In this document: positions 2 to 9,553 of the stretch, one piece after another
Position numbering within the stretch: the first letter of the stretch is position 1
Layout: each line of letters starts with the position of its first letter
NCBI GenBank assembly: GCA_020216745.1
Contig: JAIWNQ010000102.1
Location: 1 to 10,000 of the forward strand
DNA length: 10,000 bases
Direction: 5' to 3'
From: Candidatus Hydrogenedens sp.
Lineage (GTDB): Bacteria > Hydrogenedentota > Hydrogenedentia > Hydrogenedentales > Hydrogenedentaceae
Notes under the pieces: model-generated
Databases searched by the model: none
Told to the model about the DNA's origin: nothing
What the model saw: the letters and a program-made list of their open reading frames with translations, nothing else
Position numbers and translations under genes: made by a program

Positions 2-1444
2 ACCATTATTGCTGGGTTGGCAGTTCGAAAGTATGTAGGGAAAGTAGAGCATTATCTTGTCGCTGGCAGGGAGATGAACCTTTATTTGGGGATTGCTTCA
101 CTTGCGGCGACAGAATTTGGTATTGTGACGTGTATGTATACAGCACAAAATGGTTATAAAATGGGATTTGCTGGGGCAACACCGGGGATATTACAAACAA
201 TTGCTATGCTTGTCGTAGGTATTACTGGTTTCTGTATTAAACCTTTACGAGACGCAGGAGTTATGACTATTCCAGAATTATTTGAGAAGCGTTTTGGTTC
301 TACGGTGAGATGGTTATCAGGTGTTGTTATTGTCCTTGGTGGTCTTTTAAATATGGGTGTATTTCTGAGAACAGGTGGTGAGTTTTTACTTCTCACGGCC
401 GGTTTTAATCCAGATGCCTTTGCTCAATCCCATCAGCTTGAAATTATGATGAGTGTTCTTTTGATAATCGTAGCAGTATATACTGTTCTTGGGGGGATGT
501 TGTCGGTTCTTGTAACAGATTTTTTGCAGTTTATAGTAATGAGTTTAGGGATGCTTGTTGTTACTGTGTTAATTTTAGGAAAGATAGGTTGGACTCCATT
601 AGTTGAGGCTGTTCAGAAACATCATGGTTCTGCTGGCTTTAATCCATTTTTGATGGAACGTGGTTGGGAGTTTGTATTGTTTAACCTTTGTTTACAATTT
701 GCGGTTGTACTTACCTGGCAGGCAGTAATTCAGCGGGTTCTTTCCGCAAAAAGCACAAAAACAGGAAGGCAAATTTATGCTCATACAAGTTTTTTCTTCA
801 CAGCACGGTTTCTCATCCCAGGTTTGTGGGGCATTGCAGCTTTAGCGACATTAACTCCAGAACAAGTCGGTGGAAATACATTATATGCAATGCCCAAGTT
901 TTTGAGTATGTTTCTTCCCAGTGGTTTAATGGGAATTTTGATTGCGGGAATGTTAGCAGCAGACATGTCTACGGACTCTGCATATATGTTAACATGGGGA
1001 GGTGTTATCTACAATGATATTCTGGCTCCATTCCGCAAAAAACGGGAATGGTCAGAGAAAAAAGGCGTGCTTATGAATCGGTTTATTGTGGCGATGATAG
1101 GTTTATTCCTTTTGTTTTATGGATTATGGTATCCATTAAAAGGAAATCTATGGGACTATCTCGGGGTTACGGGAACAATCTATCTATCAAGTATGTCTGT
1201 GCTTTTAATTGCTTGCTGTTATTGGAAAGATGCAAATAACTGGGGTGCTATGGGGTCTATTATTTTAGGTGCCCTTTTCCCTATCGGATTTTTAGTTCTT
1301 CAACAGCTTCCAGCAACAGCGGAATGGGCTCAAGAAATCGGTCCATATAAATCTGGTATCTCTTCATATATCGTTTCTGGATTGGCAATGATTATCGGTT
1401 CATTATTGAAAAAACATCTCGTCTTGAACAAGCAGAATCCTTAA
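2..1444 (+). CDS. Solute:sodium symporter (SSS family), 5' end truncated by window edge
   Basis: Inner-membrane secondary transporter of the sodium:solute symporter family, which couples uptake of a small solute to sodium influx. The frame is already open at base 2, so the true start and roughly the first transmembrane helix lie outside the window. About 480 codons are visible. Near the visible N-terminus is the family signature EHYLVAGREM followed by ATEFG, which begins the first broken helix that carries substrate and sodium contacts. In the middle, VLGGMLSVLVTDFLQFIVM matches the conserved GG...TD..Q segment of TM5. Further on, AADMSTDSAYML matches the TM8 segment whose Ser/Thr residues form the Na2 sodium site. 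Many further hydrophobic helices continue to the C-terminus, which ends in a short basic tail (KKHLVLNKQNP). The substrate cannot be read from sequence; sugars, sialic acid or carboxylates are all possible. A 49-codon membrane protein follows 18 bp downstream and probably shares the transcript. Confidence 0.93.
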   Translation, partial: TIIAGLAVRKYVGKVEHYLVAGREMNLYLGIASLAATEFGIVTCMYTAQNGYKMGFAGATPGILQTIAMLVVGITGFCIKPLRDAGVMTIPELFEKRFGSTVRWLSGVVIVLGGLLNMGVFLRTGGEFLLLTAGFNPDAFAQSHQLEIMMSVLLIIVAVYTVLGGMLSVLVTDFLQFIVMSLGMLVVTVLILGKIGWTPLVEAVQKHHGSAGFNPFLMERGWEFVLFNLCLQFAVVLTWQAVIQRVLSAKSTKTGRQIYAHTSFFFTARFLIPGLWGIAALATLTPEQVGGNTLYAMPKFLSMFLPSGLMGILIAGMLAADMSTDSAYMLTWGGVIYNDILAPFRKKREWSEKKGVLMNRFIVAMIGLFLLFYGLWYPLKGNLWDYLGVTGTIYLSSMSVLLIACCYWKDANNWGAMGSIILGALFPIGFLVLQQLPATAEWAQEIGPYKSGISSYIVSGLAMIIGSLLKKHLVLNKQNP

Positions 1445-1674: not shown

Positions 1675-3018
1675 TTATTTCCTGTTACACACCGAAAGCC
1701 ACTGTTCAGGGATTTGAATAATGGGAATAGGAGAGTTTGTTTTCCATTTGCCATCTGTAAAATCTGGAAACTCTATTTTCTTTCCACCTACAGATGCTGA
1801 TTGTTCTGATAATTCAATAATAGCTGACCATGTTGCCGAATCGTATACATCAGGAAGTGATGTTTGTCCTGTTCGGATGGCACGTACCAATTCACGAACT
1901 GTGATAAAATCACCAAGTCCATGTCCAGCAGTTGAACCGCCAGCGGATTCGTAAGCAGACCACATAGGATGTGCATATTTATCAGTGTAAGGTTCAAAAT
2001 CTTCCCATGTATCTTTTTGTGGGCTAATATCCTCTAAATAAATTTTTTGTAGAGACCCGAAATAAATTCCCTTTGTTCCTTGAACTCTAAATATAGAGTC
2101 GTAAGGACGTGGTAAGGTTGTGTCATGATATAACGTCACTGTTTTTCCTAAGGCTGTTTGAAGTATGGTTGTATTTATGTCACCATGTTTGATATTCATT
2201 TTTGCGAGTTTGTGGTCGGCACCATATTTTTTTACAAAGTATTCATGCATCCCGAATGGTGGGGTTGATACGCTGTATAAGGAAACAAATCGGTCACCTC
2301 TATTAATGTTAAGCCACTGTGAGATAGGTCCGATAGGATGCGTTGGATACGTATTTCCTATTCTGTTAATTAATCCTTTTCCACGCCAGTTTAACGTGCC
2401 TGTTTCATCTGCTAACAGATATCGGCAATCATGTTGGTAACCACCTTCTGCATGAACAACCTCACCAAAAAGCCCTTCACGTATCATACGAAGAATGGTG
2501 AGTGGCTCTTTAAAGTAGCAGACATTCTCTAACATGAAACAGGGTTGATTATATCTATTTGAGGTTTTAATTAGTTCCCAACATTCTTTAAGAGTGATTC
2601 CTGCTGGGACCTCAATTGCGGTTAATTTACCTGCCTTCATTGATGATATGGCTACTGGTGTATGCCATTCCCAGGAGGTGGCGCATAACACACAATCAAT
2701 GTCTTCTCGTTTTACCAGATTTTCAAAATCGGTCTCTCCGTTTGTGTAAATTTCTGGGACGAAACTTTGTCGTTGTGTGCATAACGATTTTGTGCGTTCT
2801 GCATGTTCTTTTTTTATGTCAGCAATAGCACGAATCACGACATCGGAACACTGGGTTAATAAATCGACCAAAAAATGTCCCCGATTGCCAACTCCAACGA
2901 CACCAATGCTTGCTTTTTCTTTTAATTTTTCCCTTTGATTCATAAGCATGCTTAATGATAATGACGGAGGGATTAACAAGGCTGTTTGTATAAAATCTCT
3001 TCTTGAAAGGTCTGTCAT
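1675..3018 (-). CDS. Gfo/Idh/MocA-fold protein of the GH109 (alpha-N-acetylgalactosaminidase-like) family, Tat-exported
   Basis: A 447-residue protein with a twin-arginine signal (SRRDFIQ, Arg6-Arg7, then a hydrophobic stretch to about residue 25), so it is probably exported folded with its cofactor already bound. The NAD(P)-binding Rossmann fold follows, with the glycine motif GVGNRG at 42-47. The second half carries GH109 hallmarks: EVPAGITLKECWELI (136-150), MLENVCY (162-168), GGYQHD (192-197), GNTYPTHPIGP (221-231) with candidate catalytic Tyr224 and His227, INRGDRF (238-244), the LPRPYDSIFRVQGTKGIY block, and the C-terminal DVYDSATWSAI and PDFTDGKW blocks. Known GH109 enzymes use bound NAD+ to cleave alpha-GalNAc by an oxidation-elimination route; substrate specificity here is inference. 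The start is supported by AGAGGGAA at 3024-3031. The gene lies 35 bp downstream of the preceding minus-strand gene, so it is either the last operon gene or separately transcribed. Its function seems unrelated to lipid transport. Confidence 0.9.
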   Translation of the reverse strand: MTDLSRRDFIQTALLIPPSLSLSMLMNQREKLKEKASIGVVGVGNRGHFLVDLLTQCSDVVIRAIADIKKEHAERTKSLCTQRQSFVPEIYTNGETDFENLVKREDIDCVLCATSWEWHTPVAISSMKAGKLTAIEVPAGITLKECWELIKTSNRYNQPCFMLENVCYFKEPLTILRMIREGLFGEVVHAEGGYQHDCRYLLADETGTLNWRGKGLINRIGNTYPTHPIGPISQWLNINRGDRFVSLYSVSTPPFGMHEYFVKKYGADHKLAKMNIKHGDINTTILQTALGKTVTLYHDTTLPRPYDSIFRVQGTKGIYFGSLQKIYLEDISPQKDTWEDFEPYTDKYAHPMWSAYESAGGSTAGHGLGDFITVRELVRAIRTGQTSLPDVYDSATWSAIIELSEQSASVGGKKIEFPDFTDGKWKTNSPIPIIQIPEQWLSVCNRK

Positions 3019-3053: not shown

Positions 3054-3848
3054 TTAGTCTTGATAGCAAATGAAGAAGGATAAAAGTCCAAGATTGAAAT
3101 GTTCTTTTTTTATATCAAGATATAGATTTCGACGTACCTGATAAATTCGTCCTACTAATTCATCATGAAGGAAGATGCCAGACTGTAAAACCCAATATGG
3201 TTCGGAGTTATTTCCAAAAAGCGTTACTACATAGGCAGAACCAAAGAAGGAAAACTTTGGTTTTATAGTGGCAATATGTTTATTTTCCTTGTAAACGTCA
3301 AGTATTTTAGGTGCTGTTGATGTAAAAGTGATAGAGAACCAACTTCGTTTTGCTAAAATATAACATATTTCTTTTTCTAATGGGTCTTTTATAATCCACT
3401 TTTTTTCTTTCTCTTTCTCCTCAACAAAAAAGTATATTTCACCTTCTGAATTTACGCAAGGGAATAGCCCTTCTTTCCGAACATCCCCAGGAATTATATA
3501 TAGGTTGTGATTTAAAAAAGGGTCTGGTAAATCTACAATGTTCTGTTGAACAGCGACATGAGCCTCTGCCAAGTATTTTCTCCAACGTAATTCGTTTAAG
3601 AGTGCCCTTCCTGTAAAAAAGATAATACCAAATAGTGTAATGAATACTAATGATACTGTTCCAATATATAAAACTTGTTGATTTCCTAATATCAATCCCC
3701 AACAGGTTACAGAGAAGGAAACGAACACAATGATAAAGTAGACTAATAACAGTATTGGATTTAAGCGATAAACGATACGAGGCAACGTAAAATAACATAC
3801 AGCCCGCTCATAATCACTTAGATGGTCATCCATTTCTACCCTTGGCAT
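3054..3848 (-). CDS. Two-helix membrane protein of unknown function with a beta-rich C-terminal domain
   Basis: Not recognised. The 264-residue protein has a short cytosolic-looking N-terminus, two hydrophobic helices (about 31-53 and 57-80), and a soluble C-terminal part from about 100 onward. That part alternates hydrophobic and polar residues as beta strands do, with a very charged patch EEKEKEKK at 143-150. The tail, from about 185 (DVYKENKHIATIK, then YWVLQSG, LVGRIYQVRRNLYLDI and LGLLSFFICYQD), has the look of a LURP-one/scramblase-type tubby-like barrel: repeated antiparallel strands and a final hydrophobic strand. This is a weak impression, not a domain hit. The start at 3848 is supported by AAAGGAA at 3857-3863, eight bases upstream, in the 20-bp gap after the lipoprotein gene. 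Position directly after the lipid-transport genes suggests co-expression, and a membrane-lipid role would fit. Confidence 0.8.
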   Translation of the reverse strand: MPRVEMDDHLSDYERAVCYFTLPRIVYRLNPILLLVYFIIVFVSFSVTCWGLILGNQQVLYIGTVSLVFITLFGIIFFTGRALLNELRWRKYLAEAHVAVQQNIVDLPDPFLNHNLYIIPGDVRKEGLFPCVNSEGEIYFFVEEKEKEKKWIIKDPLEKEICYILAKRSWFSITFTSTAPKILDVYKENKHIATIKPKFSFFGSAYVVTLFGNNSEPYWVLQSGIFLHDELVGRIYQVRRNLYLDIKKEHFNLGLLSFFICYQD

Positions 3849-3868: not shown

Positions 3869-4447
3869 TTATGTTTTATTCAGATGGGTTGCATCTTTGT
3901 ATATATTATCTATAATTTCATCCACACACAAAGATAACGTTTTTACTACTTCTTTTACGTCTTTATCTGCTGGCTGTTTTTCAACTGCGTATACTTTTTG
4001 GGTAATGAGTTTCATGTTTTCTGGATTGAGGAATTGCACAACAAATTTTACGTCCACGTTAATTTGTGGAGACATTTCTACTACTTCAAAATTTAATACA
4101 TCGATATGAAGATAAACATCAGGGGTGTTTTTACTTAAATTTTCACACATAAAAGATTGGTTTATTTTATGGGTTAATAATTCTTCTAAACTGGAAGCCC
4201 AAAGATGTGTTGAATAATATTCAATTTCGACTGGGCTCTTTCTTATCATAATTTCTTTTCGTTTTAATGGTTCTGCTAACTTAATACTTGCCACTTGAAG
4301 CCATAGGGGTTGTGAAGTATCTTGCTGGTGTTTTAATGACCATTCCAAGGTGTAGTAATGAAGTGGTGGTGCAGATATACAACCGATACATATATTTCCA
4401 ATTAAGAATATGAAAATTGTGGATATTATACAGGTAATATATTTCAT
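3869..4447 (-). CDS. PqiC-like auxiliary lipoprotein of an MCE/ABC lipid transporter
   Basis: A 192-residue predicted lipoprotein. The signal peptide is residues 1-22, with the lipidated cysteine most likely Cys23 in CIGC; Cys20 fits the lipobox less well. The mature protein shows the pattern of the ABC-type transport auxiliary lipoprotein family (PqiC, formerly DUF330): an early HYYTLEW (30-36), a strand WLQVASIKLAEPLKR (49-63), then the VEIEYYSTHLWASSLEELL segment (73-91), and later beta strands (VYLHIDVLNFEVV, INVDVKFVVQFL). In PqiABC-type systems this lipoprotein sits in the outer membrane and contacts the MCE protein across the periplasm. The start overlaps the stop of the MCE gene as ATGA, and AGGAGGG (4453-4459) lies just upstream, so translation is probably coupled. 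Sequence identity to known PqiC is clearly low; the call rests on pattern plus context. Confidence 0.82.
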   Translation of the reverse strand: MKYITCIISTIFIFLIGNICIGCISAPPLHYYTLEWSLKHQQDTSQPLWLQVASIKLAEPLKRKEIMIRKSPVEIEYYSTHLWASSLEELLTHKINQSFMCENLSKNTPDVYLHIDVLNFEVVEMSPQINVDVKFVVQFLNPENMKLITQKVYAVEKQPADKDVKEVVKTLSLCVDEIIDNIYKDATHLNKT

Positions 4448-5475
4448 TTCTTCCCTCCTGGGATTTTCCCTGTAATTAAGGATTGAGGTTGTTCAGCCAA
4501 TGTTTGTGAGAGAATACGTAGATTACGAATAGTCTCTTTTAAGTCGAGCATAACTTCATCTAAATTCCTGCGATTTTTTCCTATCCAATTCCGTGCCTCT
4601 GAAGATAAGGTATCAACATTACTTGTTATTTCTTCTACATTCGCTAAAATTGTTTCTAAGTCGTCAGCAGTTTTCTCTGATAATGTTTGGACTCGTGTAA
4701 GAACCTCCTTAATTGAGTTCATTGAATCGCGAATAGGTCCTCTATTTTCTGCAATAACAGCGTTAACTTGTTCTAATAGTTTTTTTACGTCCTTTTCTAT
4801 ATCCGTTACATTTTTTACAATTTCTGTAATATGTGGTTTTTGCTCACCCATAAGATTTTTCAGCTCAGTAATAAAGTCTTTCCCTTCGCTTAAGGTATCG
4901 TTAATTTGCTTTGTCAGGTCTGATACACGTGGTCTATTCTCGCCAGATGCTTCAGCAGTCCTTGTTCTTTCCATACCCAAGAAATCTGTTAGGTCATCTA
5001 AAAGTTGTTCAACCTTTGCTATAGTGGACGAAAAATCGGGCAATTCAACAATTCCGCCGGATTTATTCACAGAAGCAATAAGTCCTCCTTCTTCAAGGAC
5101 AGGTGCTTGGGCGTCACCTGTGGATATTTCTAAATGGCGTGCTGAGGTGAGAGAAACTTGTTCTACCGTAGCCACACATTTTTGATTTAGAATAATATTT
5201 GGTGCAACCGCAATTTTCACACATACCTGAGTTATATCTTCAGGGTCAGTAAATATATCGATAACTTTACCAATCTTTAAACCGCCATAGCGTACATCCG
5301 CACCACGATCTAAACCTAATGTGTTTTTAAACTTGGTATAGTATATTTTTGTGCCAGCGTAAGGTCTGTAACCTCGTACTGTTAGGATAAACGCAATTAG
5401 AATGATGATGCTAATTAAAACAAACAATCCCGCTATAATTTCTTTTTTCGTAAATTCAACTGCTTTTGAATTCAT
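4444..5475 (-). CDS. mlaD: MCE/MlaD-family substrate-binding protein of a lipid ABC transporter
   Basis: A 343-residue protein anchored by one N-terminal helix (about 13-33), with a single MCE domain at about 42-120. The core motif LDRGADVRYGGLKIGKV (55-71) and the TSARHLEIS strand (110-118) are typical. MlaD-type proteins form hexameric rings in the periplasm that pass lipids between the MlaE permease and the outer membrane. After the MCE domain, about 200 residues (roughly 150-325) are predicted helical and coiled-coil-like, with repeated heptad-style charged segments (ITELKNLMGE, EIVKNVTDIEKDVKKLLEQ). This is much longer than Escherichia coli MlaD (about 180 residues) and recalls the long helical tails of PqiB, Mce1 and chloroplast TGD2-type proteins. 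The tail ends in a basic SLITGKIPGGKK. A 35-bp gap separates the gene from the ATPase gene upstream. No strong Shine-Dalgarno is visible before the ATG, unlike most neighbours. Confidence 0.93.
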   Translation of the reverse strand: MNSKAVEFTKKEIIAGLFVLISIIILIAFILTVRGYRPYAGTKIYYTKFKNTLGLDRGADVRYGGLKIGKVIDIFTDPEDITQVCVKIAVAPNIILNQKCVATVEQVSLTSARHLEISTGDAQAPVLEEGGLIASVNKSGGIVELPDFSSTIAKVEQLLDDLTDFLGMERTRTAEASGENRPRVSDLTKQINDTLSEGKDFITELKNLMGEQKPHITEIVKNVTDIEKDVKKLLEQVNAVIAENRGPIRDSMNSIKEVLTRVQTLSEKTADDLETILANVEEITSNVDTLSSEARNWIGKNRRNLDEVMLDLKETIRNLRILSQTLAEQPQSLITGKIPGGKK

Positions 5476-5510: not shown

Positions 5511-6317
5511 TTACATATTTTCAAAAGTATCCAAAATTGACGGGGCGGTTTGATTTTCTTCTGGATTTGGAGTTCGTGCAAAAAATTGACGTAAGTATGG
5601 GTCAGAATGAAGTCCCATCTCTTTCAAATCGCCAATAGCCACAATTTTACCTTCATGTAGGAGACAAACACGGTCTGCAATGATTTGAACGCTTTCCAAA
5701 TCGTGAGTGACAACAACACTGGTAAGGTTAAATGTGCTTTGCATTTTTCGTATAAGCTGGTCTAATCCTGCTGCGACAATAGGGTCTAATCCTGAGGAAG
5801 GTTCATCATAGAAAATAATCTCAGGGTCTAACGCCATAGCCCGTGCTATTCCAGCACGTTTTTTCATTCCTCCGCTTAATTGAGAGGGATATAAATGGGC
5901 ACACCCTCCGAGACCTACCAGGTCCAGTTTAATTTGTGTCATGATTTCTATTGTTGAGTCTGCAAGGTTGGTATGTTCTTTTAAGGGTAACGCCACATTC
6001 TCTCCTACTGTCATCGAATTAAACAGAGCGGAGTTCTGAAAACACATGCCAATCCGTTTTCTCAGTTCTATTTGTTGTTGTGTATTAAGGGCTGTAACAT
6101 CTTTCCCAAACATATAAATTTTTCCAAAACTTGGTCGGAGTAATCCTACTAATGTTCTGAGTAATGTACTTTTCCCGCAACCACTACCGCCAAGGATTAC
6201 AAATATCTCACCTTTTTTTACCTTAAATGAGATATTATCAAGGACTCGCCTTGTCCCGTACTCCACGACAAGGTTTTCAACTTCAATTATGTATTCGGAG
6301 TTATTATTGTTCATCAT
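5511..6317 (-). CDS. mlaF: MlaF-like ATPase of a lipid ABC transporter
   Basis: Cytosolic ATPase subunit, 268 residues, that powers lipid movement by the MlaE permease. All ABC motifs are intact: Walker A GGSGCGKST at 43-51, Q-loop Gln94 (MCFQNS), signature LSGGM at 147-151, Walker B ending in the catalytic pair Asp171-Glu172 (EIIFYDEP), D-loop SSGLDPI and H-loop His195 (VVVTHD). The sequence DEPSSGLDPI followed by VAAGLDQLI, and the LSGGMKKRAGIARA stretch, are characteristic of the MlaF/Mkl/TGD3 subgroup. The C-terminal tail (about 240-268, FFARTPNPEENQ...) extends past the catalytic core. In Escherichia coli the STAS protein MlaB binds MlaF and the MlaF C-terminal tail contributes to assembly, which matters because a STAS gene lies in this operon. 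The start overlaps the permease stop as ATGA, and two consecutive ATG codons are available. No clear Shine-Dalgarno precedes them, so translation probably depends on coupling. Confidence 0.95.
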   Translation of the reverse strand: MMNNNNSEYIIEVENLVVEYGTRRVLDNISFKVKKGEIFVILGGSGCGKSTLLRTLVGLLRPSFGKIYMFGKDVTALNTQQQIELRKRIGMCFQNSALFNSMTVGENVALPLKEHTNLADSTIEIMTQIKLDLVGLGGCAHLYPSQLSGGMKKRAGIARAMALDPEIIFYDEPSSGLDPIVAAGLDQLIRKMQSTFNLTSVVVTHDLESVQIIADRVCLLHEGKIVAIGDLKEMGLHSDPYLRQFFARTPNPEENQTAPSILDTFENM

Positions 6318-7108
6318 TCTGTAAAGTAAAATAAAGCTGTCCAGATTAAATCTACAATGATTATTGTAAAAATTGATGTTACTACAGAAGAAGTGGTCAT
6401 TTTCCCAACACTTTCTGCGCTACCTTCAACTTGAAATCCACGATAAATACCCACCCAACAGATGGTAAAGCCAAAAAATAAACTTTTTATTAGCCCTGAA
6501 TATAAGTCCTTGGCGACAAGGGCATTTGCTGTTTGGTCAAAATAAGCCCAAAAATCAATTCCGAGAATTCCAACGGCTACCACAAATCCACCTGCAATCA
6601 TAATTGCCATGGATAGCACTGTAACACAGGGCACTGCAAGTATCATCCCCAAAAATTTTGGCACGACAAGAAATTTTGTCGGATTTAACCCCATAACCAT
6701 AAGGGCATCCACCTCTTCAGATACCTTCATTGTGCCAATTTCCGCAGTTATAGCCGAGCCACTTCTACCTGTAATAAGAATTGCAGACATTAACGGTGCT
6801 AATTCTCTTAAAGCAGATATACCCACCAGATTCGCTATAAATATCGTTGCACCCCATTGCTGTAATGTATATGCGGACTGCATTGCCATAATAATCCCGA
6901 CCAATAAAGAGATAAGCCCAACGATAGGCATAGAACGGAAGCCATATTCAACGAAATGTTCTACCGCACTTTGCCATCGTAAACCTCTGCCTCGCAGGGG
7001 TTGCCAAAAAAGCCAATTTAAAGTGTCCATAATAAGTACACAAACAATTAATAGAGAGTGTAAGCCATTTAAAAAATGATGACCTATATAACCTAACAGG
7101 AATCTCAT
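6314..7108 (-). CDS. mlaE: MlaE-like permease of a lipid ABC transporter
   Basis: Integral inner-membrane permease, 264 residues, the usual MlaE length. An N-terminal amphipathic or interfacial helix region (about 1-35) precedes the core helices. The family signature runs from RELAPLMSAILITGRSGSA (101-119) through AEIGTMKVSEEVDALMVMGL (122-141); the EIGTMKV.EEVDAL stretch is the coupling region that contacts the ATPase. Further helices follow to the C-terminus (SSVVTSIFTIIIVDLIWTALFYF). It forms a dimer that binds two MlaF subunits and hands lipid to or from the MCE ring. The start codon overlaps the stop of the STAS gene by one base (TAATG). The GAGGAG at 7111-7116 lies only two bases from the ATG, unusually close, so re-initiation from the STAS stop is likely. 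Direction of lipid transport cannot be told from sequence. Confidence 0.94.
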   Translation of the reverse strand: MRFLLGYIGHHFLNGLHSLLIVCVLIMDTLNWLFWQPLRGRGLRWQSAVEHFVEYGFRSMPIVGLISLLVGIIMAMQSAYTLQQWGATIFIANLVGISALRELAPLMSAILITGRSGSAITAEIGTMKVSEEVDALMVMGLNPTKFLVVPKFLGMILAVPCVTVLSMAIMIAGGFVVAVGILGIDFWAYFDQTANALVAKDLYSGLIKSLFFGFTICWVGIYRGFQVEGSAESVGKMTTSSVVTSIFTIIIVDLIWTALFYFTE

Positions 7109-7431
7109 TACTCCTCATTACTTTCTATAATAGTAAAGACAGATTCTAATCGAGCAAGGTTCAATACTTTGCGGACTGCTGGTGAAGGAGTAGATAACTT
7201 AAAAGATTTTTTTTGTTTCATAGCAGAGCGTAATCCTTCTACTAATGTTGCGACCCCCGAAGAATCCATATACTCCACAGTTGATAACTGTATTATAATA
7301 GAGGTATTTGATTTATCGACAGCTTCCATAATCGCTTTGCGTAGATTTGGGGAAGTGTATAAGTCAACTTGACCCGATACTTGAATTTTATAGTTTCCGT
7401 TTTGTTCTACCGATTTTACTTCTATGGACAT
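7108..7431 (-). CDS. STAS-domain protein (RsbV/SpoIIAA-like or MlaB-like)
   Basis: A 107-residue single STAS domain. The conserved loop EYMDSSGVATLVEGL (53-67) contains the DSSG motif; Ser57 matches the serine phosphorylated in SpoIIAA/RsbV by its cognate RsbW-type kinase. Length and domain are equally compatible with MlaB, the STAS subunit that binds MlaF in proteobacterial lipid transporters, although MlaB-type proteins tend to have Thr rather than the double Ser in this loop. The gene sits between both candidate partners: 3 bp after the RsbW-like kinase gene and overlapping the MlaE gene by one base. Its ribosome binding site, AAAGG at 7439-7443, lies seven bases before the ATG, inside the end of the kinase gene. 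STAS identity is certain. Whether the partner is the kinase, the transporter or both is inference; the layout suggests both. Confidence 0.92.
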   Translation of the reverse strand: MSIEVKSVEQNGNYKIQVSGQVDLYTSPNLRKAIMEAVDKSNTSIIIQLSTVEYMDSSGVATLVEGLRSAMKQKKSFKLSTPSPAVRKVLNLARLESVFTIIESNEE

Positions 7432-7434
7432 AAG

Positions 7435-7872
7435 TTAACCTTTCTTGAAACCTTTTCTACGGGTTCTCAGGATAAGACAATTTCTACCATCATTATCTAC
7501 ATTAAACTGTATTTCTTCAAATGCACGTTTAAGAATAATTAAACCAAGTCCATGTGGCTTGATAGTTGTAGGTTGTAGAGGTGCAACTTCCTTTCTGTCT
7601 AAAAAGTTTTTTGGTGGGCATGCTCCACAATCCTGTATTTCAAATTCAAGCCATACTGTTCCCAGTCGTGCTGTTAATTGTATTATACCTGCACGGGAAT
7701 TGTGGTATGCATGGCGAATACAGTTTGTGCATGCTTCATCAAGTCCTAAAACAATATCATCTATTCGGTCTTTGGAAAAGCCTACCACGTCTAAATAATT
7801 TTTTATTAAAGCCCTAATAGGCTTTAAGAGTTTTGGATGTGAACGGAATGTTATTTTTAAGTCATCACGCAT
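7435..7872 (-). CDS. RsbW/SpoIIAB-like serine kinase (HATPase_c)
   Basis: A 145-residue stand-alone GHKL ATPase domain of the anti-sigma/serine kinase type, usual length for the family. The N box is LDEACTNCIRHAY (44-56), with Glu46 and Asn50 as the catalytic and magnesium-binding positions. The G1 region is IQDCGACPP (79-87), where Asp81 and Gly83 are kept but the usual second glycine of D-x-G-x-G is replaced by Cys85. The G2 lid is PHGLGLIILKR (106-116). In known systems such a kinase phosphorylates a STAS protein on the DSSG serine and, when free, binds its output target, often a sigma factor. No sigma factor gene is in the window. The start overlaps the phosphatase stop by eight bases (7865-7872), so translation is coupled; only a weak GGTGG-like sequence lies upstream. 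Confidence 0.9.
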   Translation of the reverse strand: MRDDLKITFRSHPKLLKPIRALIKNYLDVVGFSKDRIDDIVLGLDEACTNCIRHAYHNSRAGIIQLTARLGTVWLEFEIQDCGACPPKNFLDRKEVAPLQPTTIKPHGLGLIILKRAFEEIQFNVDNDGRNCLILRTRRKGFKKG

Positions 7873-9553
7873 GGTTTAGCCACCGAAATAGGAGTAATGT
7901 GCAATCGTCATGAGGTGAATTAGGTTCTGTGTGTTTCTGAACTTCACTTAATATCGCCTGTACAAACTGTTCTGCATTTTCAAAATGTATAGTCTCAACC
8001 ATTTTTTTTAATCTATCAATACCAAATTCTCTGTCAATAATTTCTTTTTCATTATCTTCATTTCTTGCCTCAATGATTCCGTCGGTAAATAATAAAATAG
8101 AGTCTTCCTTCGATAAAATGTCGTTTTCAACTTTCCATGTGGAGTTAGGTAGAACTCCTAACGGTGGTCCACTTGGGTGGAAACAATAGTCCGTTTTGTG
8201 ATTTCTTAACCATAATGTCGGTAAATGTCCAGCATTAACTACAGAAATTTCTCCAGTCTTTATATCTACAACGACATAACATAAAGAGCAAAACATGCCT
8301 TGCTGTCCATACTCGAAGAGGTCTTCATTTAGGGCATTGATTACATCCACTTGTGAGGATAATCGTTGTGCCTGAATTCTAAATTCAGTAAGCAATCGCA
8401 CCATAGCAAGGGAAGCAGGCATTCCTTTTCCAGATACATCTCCTACAATAAACCCAATTTTATCTTTTGGTAATAAAATGACATCATAAAAATCACCACC
8501 TACTACCTTTGCTGGCAAAGTTCGTGCATACATATCACAATTGTTCGGGATAGATTTCCAATTGTCAAATAAGAAGCCTTGCTGAATGACAGCTGCAGTT
8601 TTTAATTCCTGGTCTAATCTATACTTTTCTATTAATTCTTGATATATTCGAACATTTTCCATAGCGAGACCTGCCGCATTACCCACAGCGGAGGCAAGTA
8701 ACAATTCTTCTTCGGTATATCTGCTCTGTTCCGATACTGTATCCATATATAACAAACCGATCACTTTCTCTTTGGCACGAAGCGGAGCACAAATGACAGA
8801 TTGGACATTTAAGGAAATAATACTTACTGCTTTTTTTAGCTCATCGTTTTCCATAATATCCTGATAAAGCAGACTTTGCCGTTCTTTAACTACTTTATAA
8901 ATAACAGTACTGCTAATGGATACTCGATTTACTGGAACAGAGATAAGATGTCCTCCTTCCCACTGATGAACACGTTGACATTGAGGGCATGGTAACACAT
9001 TACCGTTTTCGTCTGTTAGTAAAATGGCACCGTGGTCGATAGGTAGTACACGAGAGGTTGCTTCGATAATTTTGTTTTGTAATTCACAATGATTGAAATT
9101 AGTTGCGATTTCATTAATAACTTTGCAAAGGGTCTCTAATAACAAGTTGGCTCGTTGTTGCTTTGTAGAAGGAAGTGTTGTCTCATCCATGCTGAGAAAG
9201 GAATGAGCCACAATAGAACTTTGGTCGCCAATTTCTGACTCTTTTTTAAGATTTTCTGTTGGCTCTTTGTTCTGCTCTATCTCAAAACGGAAGGTTGTTT
9301 TCCCAATCTGAATTAAGTCGCCAGGATGAAGTTCTCCTGAAAGCATCTTTTGCCCGTTGATGTATGTGCCGTTTGTACTTCCTAAATCTTTCCAGATATA
9401 GCCTCCTTCTTTAGCCTTCAATTCAATATGTTTGCGAGAGACCGCCGGGTCTTCTAAAATTAAACCACATTCTTTAGTTCTGCCAATAATTAAATGGGTA
9501 GGGAGAGGTATTTTTTCTCCTTTGTCATCGTTTACTAAATATGCTTTGGGCAC
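7865..9553 (-). CDS. FHA-GAF-PP2C (SpoIIE/RsbU-type) protein phosphatase
   Basis: A 562-residue cytosolic three-domain regulator. The FHA domain (about 20-93) shows IIGR (22-25), the phosphothreonine-binding SRKH (39-42), and GSTNGTYING (58-67). A GAF domain spans about 130-305 and ends in a helix (VRIYQELIEKYRLDQELKTA, 301-320) that links to the phosphatase. The PP2C/SpoIIE domain (about 330-560) keeps its metal-binding acids: GGDFYD (352-357), GDVSGKG (371-377), FTDGIIEA (489-496) and HDDCT (548-552). Proteins like this remove phosphate from a STAS antagonist, and the STAS gene is two genes downstream. FHA input suggests control by a Ser/Thr protein kinase; GAF suggests a small ligand or redox signal. 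The start is GTG, not ATG (9551-9553), supported by GGGAGA at 9560-9565. The GAF domain holds a CPQC motif (189-192). It is the first gene of the leftward cluster. Confidence 0.95.
   Translation of the reverse strand: MPKAYLVNDDKGEKIPLPTHLIIGRTKECGLILEDPAVSRKHIELKAKEGGYIWKDLGSTNGTYINGQKMLSGELHPGDLIQIGKTTFRFEIEQNKEPTENLKKESEIGDQSSIVAHSFLSMDETTLPSTKQQRANLLLETLCKVINEIATNFNHCELQNKIIEATSRVLPIDHGAILLTDENGNVLPCPQCQRVHQWEGGHLISVPVNRVSISSTVIYKVVKERQSLLYQDIMENDELKKAVSIISLNVQSVICAPLRAKEKVIGLLYMDTVSEQSRYTEEELLLASAVGNAAGLAMENVRIYQELIEKYRLDQELKTAAVIQQGFLFDNWKSIPNNCDMYARTLPAKVVGGDFYDVILLPKDKIGFIVGDVSGKGMPASLAMVRLLTEFRIQAQRLSSQVDVINALNEDLFEYGQQGMFCSLCYVVVDIKTGEISVVNAGHLPTLWLRNHKTDYCFHPSGPPLGVLPNSTWKVENDILSKEDSILLFTDGIIEARNEDNEKEIIDREFGIDRLKKMVETIHFENAEQFVQAILSEVQKHTEPNSPHDDCTLLLFRWLNHA

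Follow-up and report, generated by a model that had tools for sequence, protein, structure and literature searches.

Partner-switching modules such as RsbU-RsbW-RsbV and SpoIIE-SpoIIAB-SpoIIAA are known from Bacillus as regulators of sigma factors, and MlaFEDB is known from E. coli as a lipid transporter that contains a separate STAS protein, MlaB, in addition to MlaE, MlaF and MlaD. The operon discussed here carries genes of both kinds. It lies on the minus strand of a 10,000-nucleotide contig of Candidatus Hydrogenedens sp. (JAIWNQ010000102.1, assembly GCA_020216745.1), called the window below, which belongs to a 3.13 Mb genome with an estimated completeness of 86% and contamination of 4%. 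We estimate a probability of roughly 70% that the operon encodes a phospho-controlled partner switch acting on the ATPase of an MCE (Mla-type) lipid transporter and not on a sigma factor. Across several bacterial groups, most of them uncultured, the pump genes nearly always accompany those of a kinase, a phosphatase and a small protein with a single invariant serine, which makes phosphorylation the probable switch of the pump.

Phosphorylation of E. coli MlaB has been proposed in PMC5016091 (2016) and PMC7367683 (2020), at the residue that corresponds to S57 of the STAS protein in the window, and no kinase is named in the available text of either. The E. coli mla operon, unlike the one described here, has no kinase or phosphatase gene. 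MlaB is reported to be sparsely distributed and the long form of MlaD to be the commonest (PMC10665443), and the fusion of STAS to DUF140 has been noted (PMC1810536). Among partner switches, BtrU/V/W, SypE/SypA and HmpU/V/W act on something other than a Bacillus-type sigma factor or have an output of unknown kind (PMC8256260), and they resemble the system proposed here in that the phosphorylation state of a STAS protein controls such an output. In the available text of that review of STAS-only proteins no transporter ATPase is named as their target, and the terms Mla, MlaB and ABC are absent from it. In a literature search on Mla/Mce and STAS partner switching, which covered mainly the open literature with few subscription papers or preprints, no title or abstract opening among the matches listed describes this arrangement.

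Organization of the operon

Open reading frames and Pfam/NCBIfam scans gave the gene order phosphatase (FHA-GAF-SpoIIE), kinase (HATPase_c_2), STAS, MlaE, MlaF, MlaD, ABC_trans_aux lipoprotein and a 264-aa protein, as follows (aa, amino acids).

7865..9553, minus strand: FHA-GAF-PP2C (SpoIIE/RsbU-type) serine phosphatase, 562 aa, GTG start (PF07228 5.5e-44, 150.9 bits; PF00498 9.3e-19; PF13185 8.5e-11)
7435..7872, minus strand: RsbW/SpoIIAB-like GHKL serine kinase, 145 aa (PF13581 9.2e-22)
7108..7431, minus strand: RsbV-like STAS protein, 107 aa, DSSG motif with predicted phosphosite S57 (PF01740 1.2e-17)
6314..7108, minus strand: MlaE permease, 264 aa, no fused STAS (PF02405 1.2e-73; TIGR00056 above cut-off)
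5511..6317, minus strand: MlaF ATPase, 268 aa, with C-terminal extension (PF00005; top NCBIfam model MlaF PRK11831 3.3e-66, under its cut-off)
4444..5475, minus strand: MlaD/MCE protein, long form, 343 aa (PF02470 1.9e-12)
3869..4447, minus strand: PqiC-like ABC_trans_aux lipoprotein, 192 aa (PF03886 5.1e-16)
3054..3848, minus strand: protein without assigned family, 264 aa, with long hydrophobic helices (by eye) and a tubby/LURP-one-fold domain at residues 112-264

The original prediction, made from the letters of the window, had named the first five of these genes with overlapping reading frames and no sigma factor in the window. All five were found at their predicted positions on the minus strand, and the stretch that runs from phosphatase to MlaF is tightly packed: phosphatase and kinase overlap by 8 bases, 3 bases separate the kinase from STAS, the STAS stop codon has 1 base in common with MlaE, and MlaE and MlaF overlap by 4 bases. 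A GGGAGAG stretch precedes the GTG start of the phosphatase. No sigma factor was present among the ten window proteins scanned, as predicted, and the numbering of S57 was correct, with DSSG at STAS residues 56-59. The operon extends further than had been described, through MlaD and the lipoprotein to the 264-aa protein. The MlaE permease (PF02405), the ATP-binding cassette (ABC) ATPase (PF00005) and the MCE-domain protein MlaD (PF02470) thus stand in one operon, as in other MCE/Mla transporters, and MlaF chains are among the top Protein Data Bank matches of the window MlaF.

Compared with the Bacillus modules, the conserved neighbour of this switch is an ABC lipid transporter, and no SigB/F/G factor above the cut-off goes with it. 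E. coli MlaFEDB shares MlaE, MlaF, MlaD and the separate STAS protein, and the spacing in the MlaF tail is the same in most cassettes, as we call the recurring gene set. Unlike MlaB, the STAS protein of the window is RsbV-like: it scores above the cut-off of TIGR00377 and reaches 23 of the 90 bits needed for the mlaB model NF033618, and its operon has a long MlaD and a PqiC-like lipoprotein but no MlaC. Transporters with STAS fused to MlaE are similar in their MlaE-MlaF-MlaD order and in a STAS domain tied to the permease. For these fusions no kinase was found upstream, many of the stretches being short, and a PP2C gene was seen about 2 kb upstream in L062 and L080 only (the labels G, L and C denote genomes, loci and contigs of this analysis).

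Recurrence of the cassette in other genomes

The nearest named relatives of the window MlaE are 92, 90 and 79% identical; two of them are labelled uncultured bacterium, whereas the remaining one is labelled Candidatus Hydrogenedentota, as are most of those that follow. The first 166 loci comprised 80 loci from this comparison, loci of relatives and further fetched stretches, with the window present three times and some genomes twice, and 60 of their 151 MlaE frames had matches to STAS, kinase and phosphatase upstream on the same strand. Loci L091-L118 partly repeat the genomes of L011-L043, and in L031 and L035 part of the set is missing at contig ends. The full set was found in metagenome-assembled genomes (MAGs) labelled Hydrogenedentota, Thermoanaerobaculales, Acidobacteria, KSB1, Calditrichia and Caldithrix, with one each from Nitrospiraceae and Rhodothermaeota.

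In a set of 68 Hydrogenedentota genomes, MlaE of the cassette class (E value of 2.1e-86 or better) was present in 37 and the kinase class (at least 155 bits) in 38. All 37 genomes with this MlaE carried the kinase class, adjacent in 36 of them and with both genes at contig ends in G067. The 31 genomes without it included one clear kinase, in G025, and weaker matches in G047 and G049. Fisher's exact test, in which kinship is ignored, gave 1.7e-18 for the clear case (1/31) and 4.5e-16 when the weaker ones were included (3/31). All 30 Hydrogenedentota kinase loci that were fetched had phosphatase, STAS and MlaE as well.

The same picture was obtained further away. In the phylum of the KSB1 MAG L036, which includes the Caldithrix MAG L043, the kinase profile matched 82 of 82 genomes at 1e-20. 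Among the best 30 loci of this phylum kinase-STAS-MlaE was present in 29, the thirtieth stopping before MlaE, and 25 of the 29 also had the phosphatase. In the class of the Acidobacteria MAG L027 a kinase match at 1e-35 was found in 7 of 148 genomes, all seven with phosphatase-kinase-STAS-MlaE. A synteny search had been proposed as a check, and the same order and strand do recur in Hydrogenedentota, Acidobacteriota and KSB1/Calditrichota MAGs. The linkage of switch and transporter is beyond chance, and the arrangement, found in several phyla, is very likely a functional unit.

Some loci have a related but different layout. L087, from a Verrucomicrobia MAG, has at 5525-8642 a set in which STAS-MlaE-MlaF-MlaD is followed by an RsbW-like kinase, with no phosphatase match; a search of 288 genomes for this type of downstream kinase matched 1, the source genome itself. 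In L062 and L080, both from SAR324 MAGs, the PP2C gene precedes an MlaE to which an N-terminal domain is fused, which is possibly another phosphatase-linked Mla system.

Conserved residues of the switch and of the MlaF tail

The predicted phosphosite is invariant. DSSG was found in all 47 rows of separate STAS proteins and, in a wider set, in 79 of 79 distinct segments above 60 bits (identical sequences removed), the profile for this set having been built from cassette members and so favouring similar sequences. All 79 segments continue after DSSG with [VIL]AT[LF][VI]E, and all have G-x-A past the phosphosite, like E. coli MlaB (DTGGLALLL), whereas RsbV of B. subtilis and TM1442 have G-L-G (G-x-G). 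Where an N-terminal domain is fused to MlaE, the corresponding position is Ser in 30, Thr in 19 and another residue (A, M, Y, N or E) in 12 of 61 cases; fusion was defined here by length, as an MlaE frame with more than 105 residues ahead of the match, without a STAS profile run on each domain, and the most divergent ones, e.g. L044-L049, are aligned with some uncertainty.

The window's own genome contains three STAS genes and two MlaE genes. The second MlaE, on contig C19, is fused to STAS at its N terminus, and genes for MlaF, an MlaD-like and a lipoprotein-like protein come after it (partly assigned by eye). The third STAS gene, on C168, stands beside an MraZ-like gene and has Met in place of S57 (by eye). 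As one of the other two is fused to MlaE and one has Met at the phosphosite, no free STAS protein that could clearly replace that of the cassette was found in this incomplete genome. A dedicated MlaB elsewhere, which the original prediction had named as evidence that would speak against it, was thus not seen.

Both enzymes appear to be intact. Kinase residues E46, N50, D81, G83, G108 and G110, which we take to belong to the N and G boxes, are kept in 44 of 44 aligned rows (the window being counted beside its own locus copy), as expected of a serine kinase. The kinase sequence matches RsbW (6m36, 2.7e-8) and SpoIIAB (1th8, 2.8e-4), and a joined kinase-STAS chain gave a predicted fold with a predicted template modelling score (pTM) of 0.85, the prediction being judged by pTM and fold matches only. 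A natural kinase-STAS fusion seemed to be present in L021, a locus that apparently belongs to genome G033; in this frame the final strand of the kinase and the start of STAS are missing (by eye), and it was not used as evidence. An alignment in which rows of the kinase alone and of STAS alone were mixed was poor and was likewise set aside. In the phosphatase, which matches PF07228, D357, D372, D491, D549 and D550 were conserved in all 32 rows of more than 300 residues and D354 in 31; the metal-binding residues of PP2C are presumably among these. GAF was present in all five phosphatases scanned from KSB1/Calditrichota/Caldithrix loci and FHA gave no match in any of them, while FHA was present in four other phosphatases scanned and in the window's own. 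The absence of an FHA match in these five proteins leaves GAF as the sensor common to the phosphatases, and FHA lies outside the cassette core.

In E. coli, MlaF ends in a helical C-terminal extension that packs at the interface with MlaB through Y261, L265 and L266; the extension is essential for function, yet MlaB still binds after its loss (PMC7367683). The tails of cassette MlaF proteins match that of E. coli at the same spacing in the alignment. The motif [YFW]-x3-[LIVM] at the Y261/L265 spacing was found in 35 of 42 cassette MlaF tails (4.7 expected from shuffled tails) and in 4 of 4 with a separate STAS and no kinase seen upstream (1.2 expected), these including L035, which ends at a contig edge, and L087 with its downstream kinase. 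It was found in 0 of 25 tails where MlaE has a fused N-terminal domain by the length definition given above (0.8 expected) and in 1 of 18 where no STAS was detected (0.7 expected). Truncated MlaF frames, duplicate tails and MlaF matches above 1e-30 are omitted from these counts, and the match in L013 is probably misplaced. Fisher values on these sets overstate independence because the sequences are related. The comparison indicates that an MlaB-type tail goes together with a separate STAS protein and is missing where the domain is fused to MlaE.

Proposed mechanism and competing explanations

In the mechanism that we propose, unphosphorylated STAS would dock on MlaF through its helix-2 face in the manner of MlaB, and MlaF would then assemble with MlaE and hydrolyse ATP. 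The RsbW-like kinase would occupy the same face and phosphorylate S57, so that STAS leaves MlaF and transport stops. The PP2C phosphatase, gated by GAF and in some lineages by FHA, would strip the phosphate and restore MlaF binding and transport. In E. coli, complexes purified without MlaB contain no MlaF, and MlaB T52E weakens MlaF binding (PMC7367683), while T52A abolishes ATPase activity (PMC5016091). The fuller version of this proposal, in which a partner-switch kinase and phosphatase are dedicated to an ABC transporter, STAS Ser phosphorylation directly gates the MCE lipid pump, kinase and MlaF are mutually exclusive on one STAS face, and the system extends over at least three phylum-level groups, is in our view rather likely, with somewhat less confidence. 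The idea in the original prediction that a STAS switch acts on lipid transport is, as regards the wiring, strongly supported by synteny, co-occurrence, the invariant DSSG, the kinase residues and the MlaF tail; FHA, named there beside GAF as a sensor, is not part of the core, given the five phosphatases without an FHA match, and G025 is the one clear exception to the co-occurrence.

Several observations weigh against this reading. G025, a genome rated 100% complete, has the FHA-GAF-PP2C phosphatase, the kinase and the DSSG STAS protein without cassette-class MlaE. Its switch (L162, G025:C37, 1640-5190) has no MlaE, MlaF or MlaD beside it and is followed by PilZ-like and amidase-like genes (by eye), and its MlaE is a fused one elsewhere. 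Either the pump was lost in G025 or the switch has a second target; since the switch is kept without this MlaE, another target is possible. In 4 of the 29 KSB1-phylum loci no phosphatase was present in the fetched stretch beside the kinase. Ser or Thr occupies the phosphosite in 49 of the 61 fused domains, and the residue alone therefore proves nothing. The window's own MlaF tail is I-x3-F, which fails the strict motif and fits a relaxed form only, and those of two close relatives are I-x3-L. Finally, E. coli MlaB T52A stays bound to a complex without detectable ATPase activity (PMC5016091; also told in PMC7367683), and a simple bound/unbound switch accounts neither for this nor for the MlaB binding that persists once the MlaF tail is removed.

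The T52A result also suits a switch of opposite sign or at another step, in which phospho-STAS is the active form or phosphorylation tunes the ATPase of a permanently bound STAS. In Bordetella, BtrV phosphorylation promotes BtrW binding, whereas in canonical systems phosphorylation ends partner binding (PMC8256260), and the lower MlaF pull-down with T52E in E. coli (PMC7367683) agrees with the canonical direction. We regard a switch of this kind as unlikely. We are more doubtful still of an ordinary RsbU-RsbW-RsbV module that controls a sigma factor, or some other target in transcription, and is co-transcribed with the transporter by coincidence. The kinase and STAS protein are nearest in sequence to anti-sigma and anti-anti-sigma proteins, the module in G025 persists without this MlaE, and the contigs that bear the cassette in G001 and G003 also have, about 12 kb away from it, a sigma-like gene that scores under the SigB/F/G cut-off. 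However, SigB/F/G (TIGR02980) was above the cut-off in 0 of 40 genomes (the own genome and 39 relatives) and in 1 of 14 controls, though lower-scoring sigma matches occur in all 40, and these other sigma groups could therefore provide a different target. Moreover, neither sigC241, a sigma factor of the own genome, nor one ECF (extracytoplasmic function) factor had a match in L011-L043 (33 loci, 345,973 bases); as a positive control, the sigC241 query found a second sigma factor. A sigma factor as the target of the kinase, another finding by which the original prediction was to be judged, did not emerge from these searches. The near-perfect linkage to MlaE in the examined sets and the MlaF tail that tracks the separate STAS protein also argue against an ordinary regulator.

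A STAS protein with two outputs, MlaF and a second partner such as a PilZ-type or envelope target, would make the pump one branch of a wider switch. The PilZ-like and amidase-like neighbours in G025 would suit this, as would two g31 genomes that have a weaker phosphatase-kinase pair with no STAS match beside it, one contig stopping right after the kinase. With a clear kinase in just 1 of the 31 genomes without this MlaE, we consider it very improbable.

If the proposed gating of MlaF by STAS phosphorylation is true, the cassette supplies a kinase and a phosphatase of the sort foreseen in the papers on E. coli MlaB, ABC transporter ATPases join the targets of partner switching, and cytoplasmic signals could gate lipid traffic across the envelope. 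Because kinase and phosphatase are encoded in, and inherited with, the transporter operon, the question of MlaB phosphorylation raised in E. coli becomes directly testable with purified parts.

Two other loci with RsbW-like genes were recorded. In L163 (G024:C96, 1846-4758) a separate RsbW-STAS-RsbU-like set lies opposite an ECF-sigma-like gene (by eye). In the window's own genome, contig C280 (L120) carries an RsbW-like gene amid YbeY-, MnmG-, PheS- and RuvB-like genes. This gene was considered as a canonical module of the genome itself and set aside, since the surrounding gene order looks foreign; our impression is that the contig is a contaminant from another phylum.

The operon is flanked by a GH109/Gfo-Idh-type oxidoreductase (1675-3018, minus strand) and a sodium:solute symporter (2-1444, plus strand), with no evident link to it. 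The 264-aa protein matched no convincing Pfam family. In the predicted structure it consists of long helices and a domain that matches AT5G01750, which we take to be a LURP-one-related protein, and Tubby bound to phosphatidylinositol bisphosphate (PIP2). It is the final cassette gene in the 12 relatives aligned, and the model thus places a predicted lipid-binding-type fold within a lipid-transport operon.

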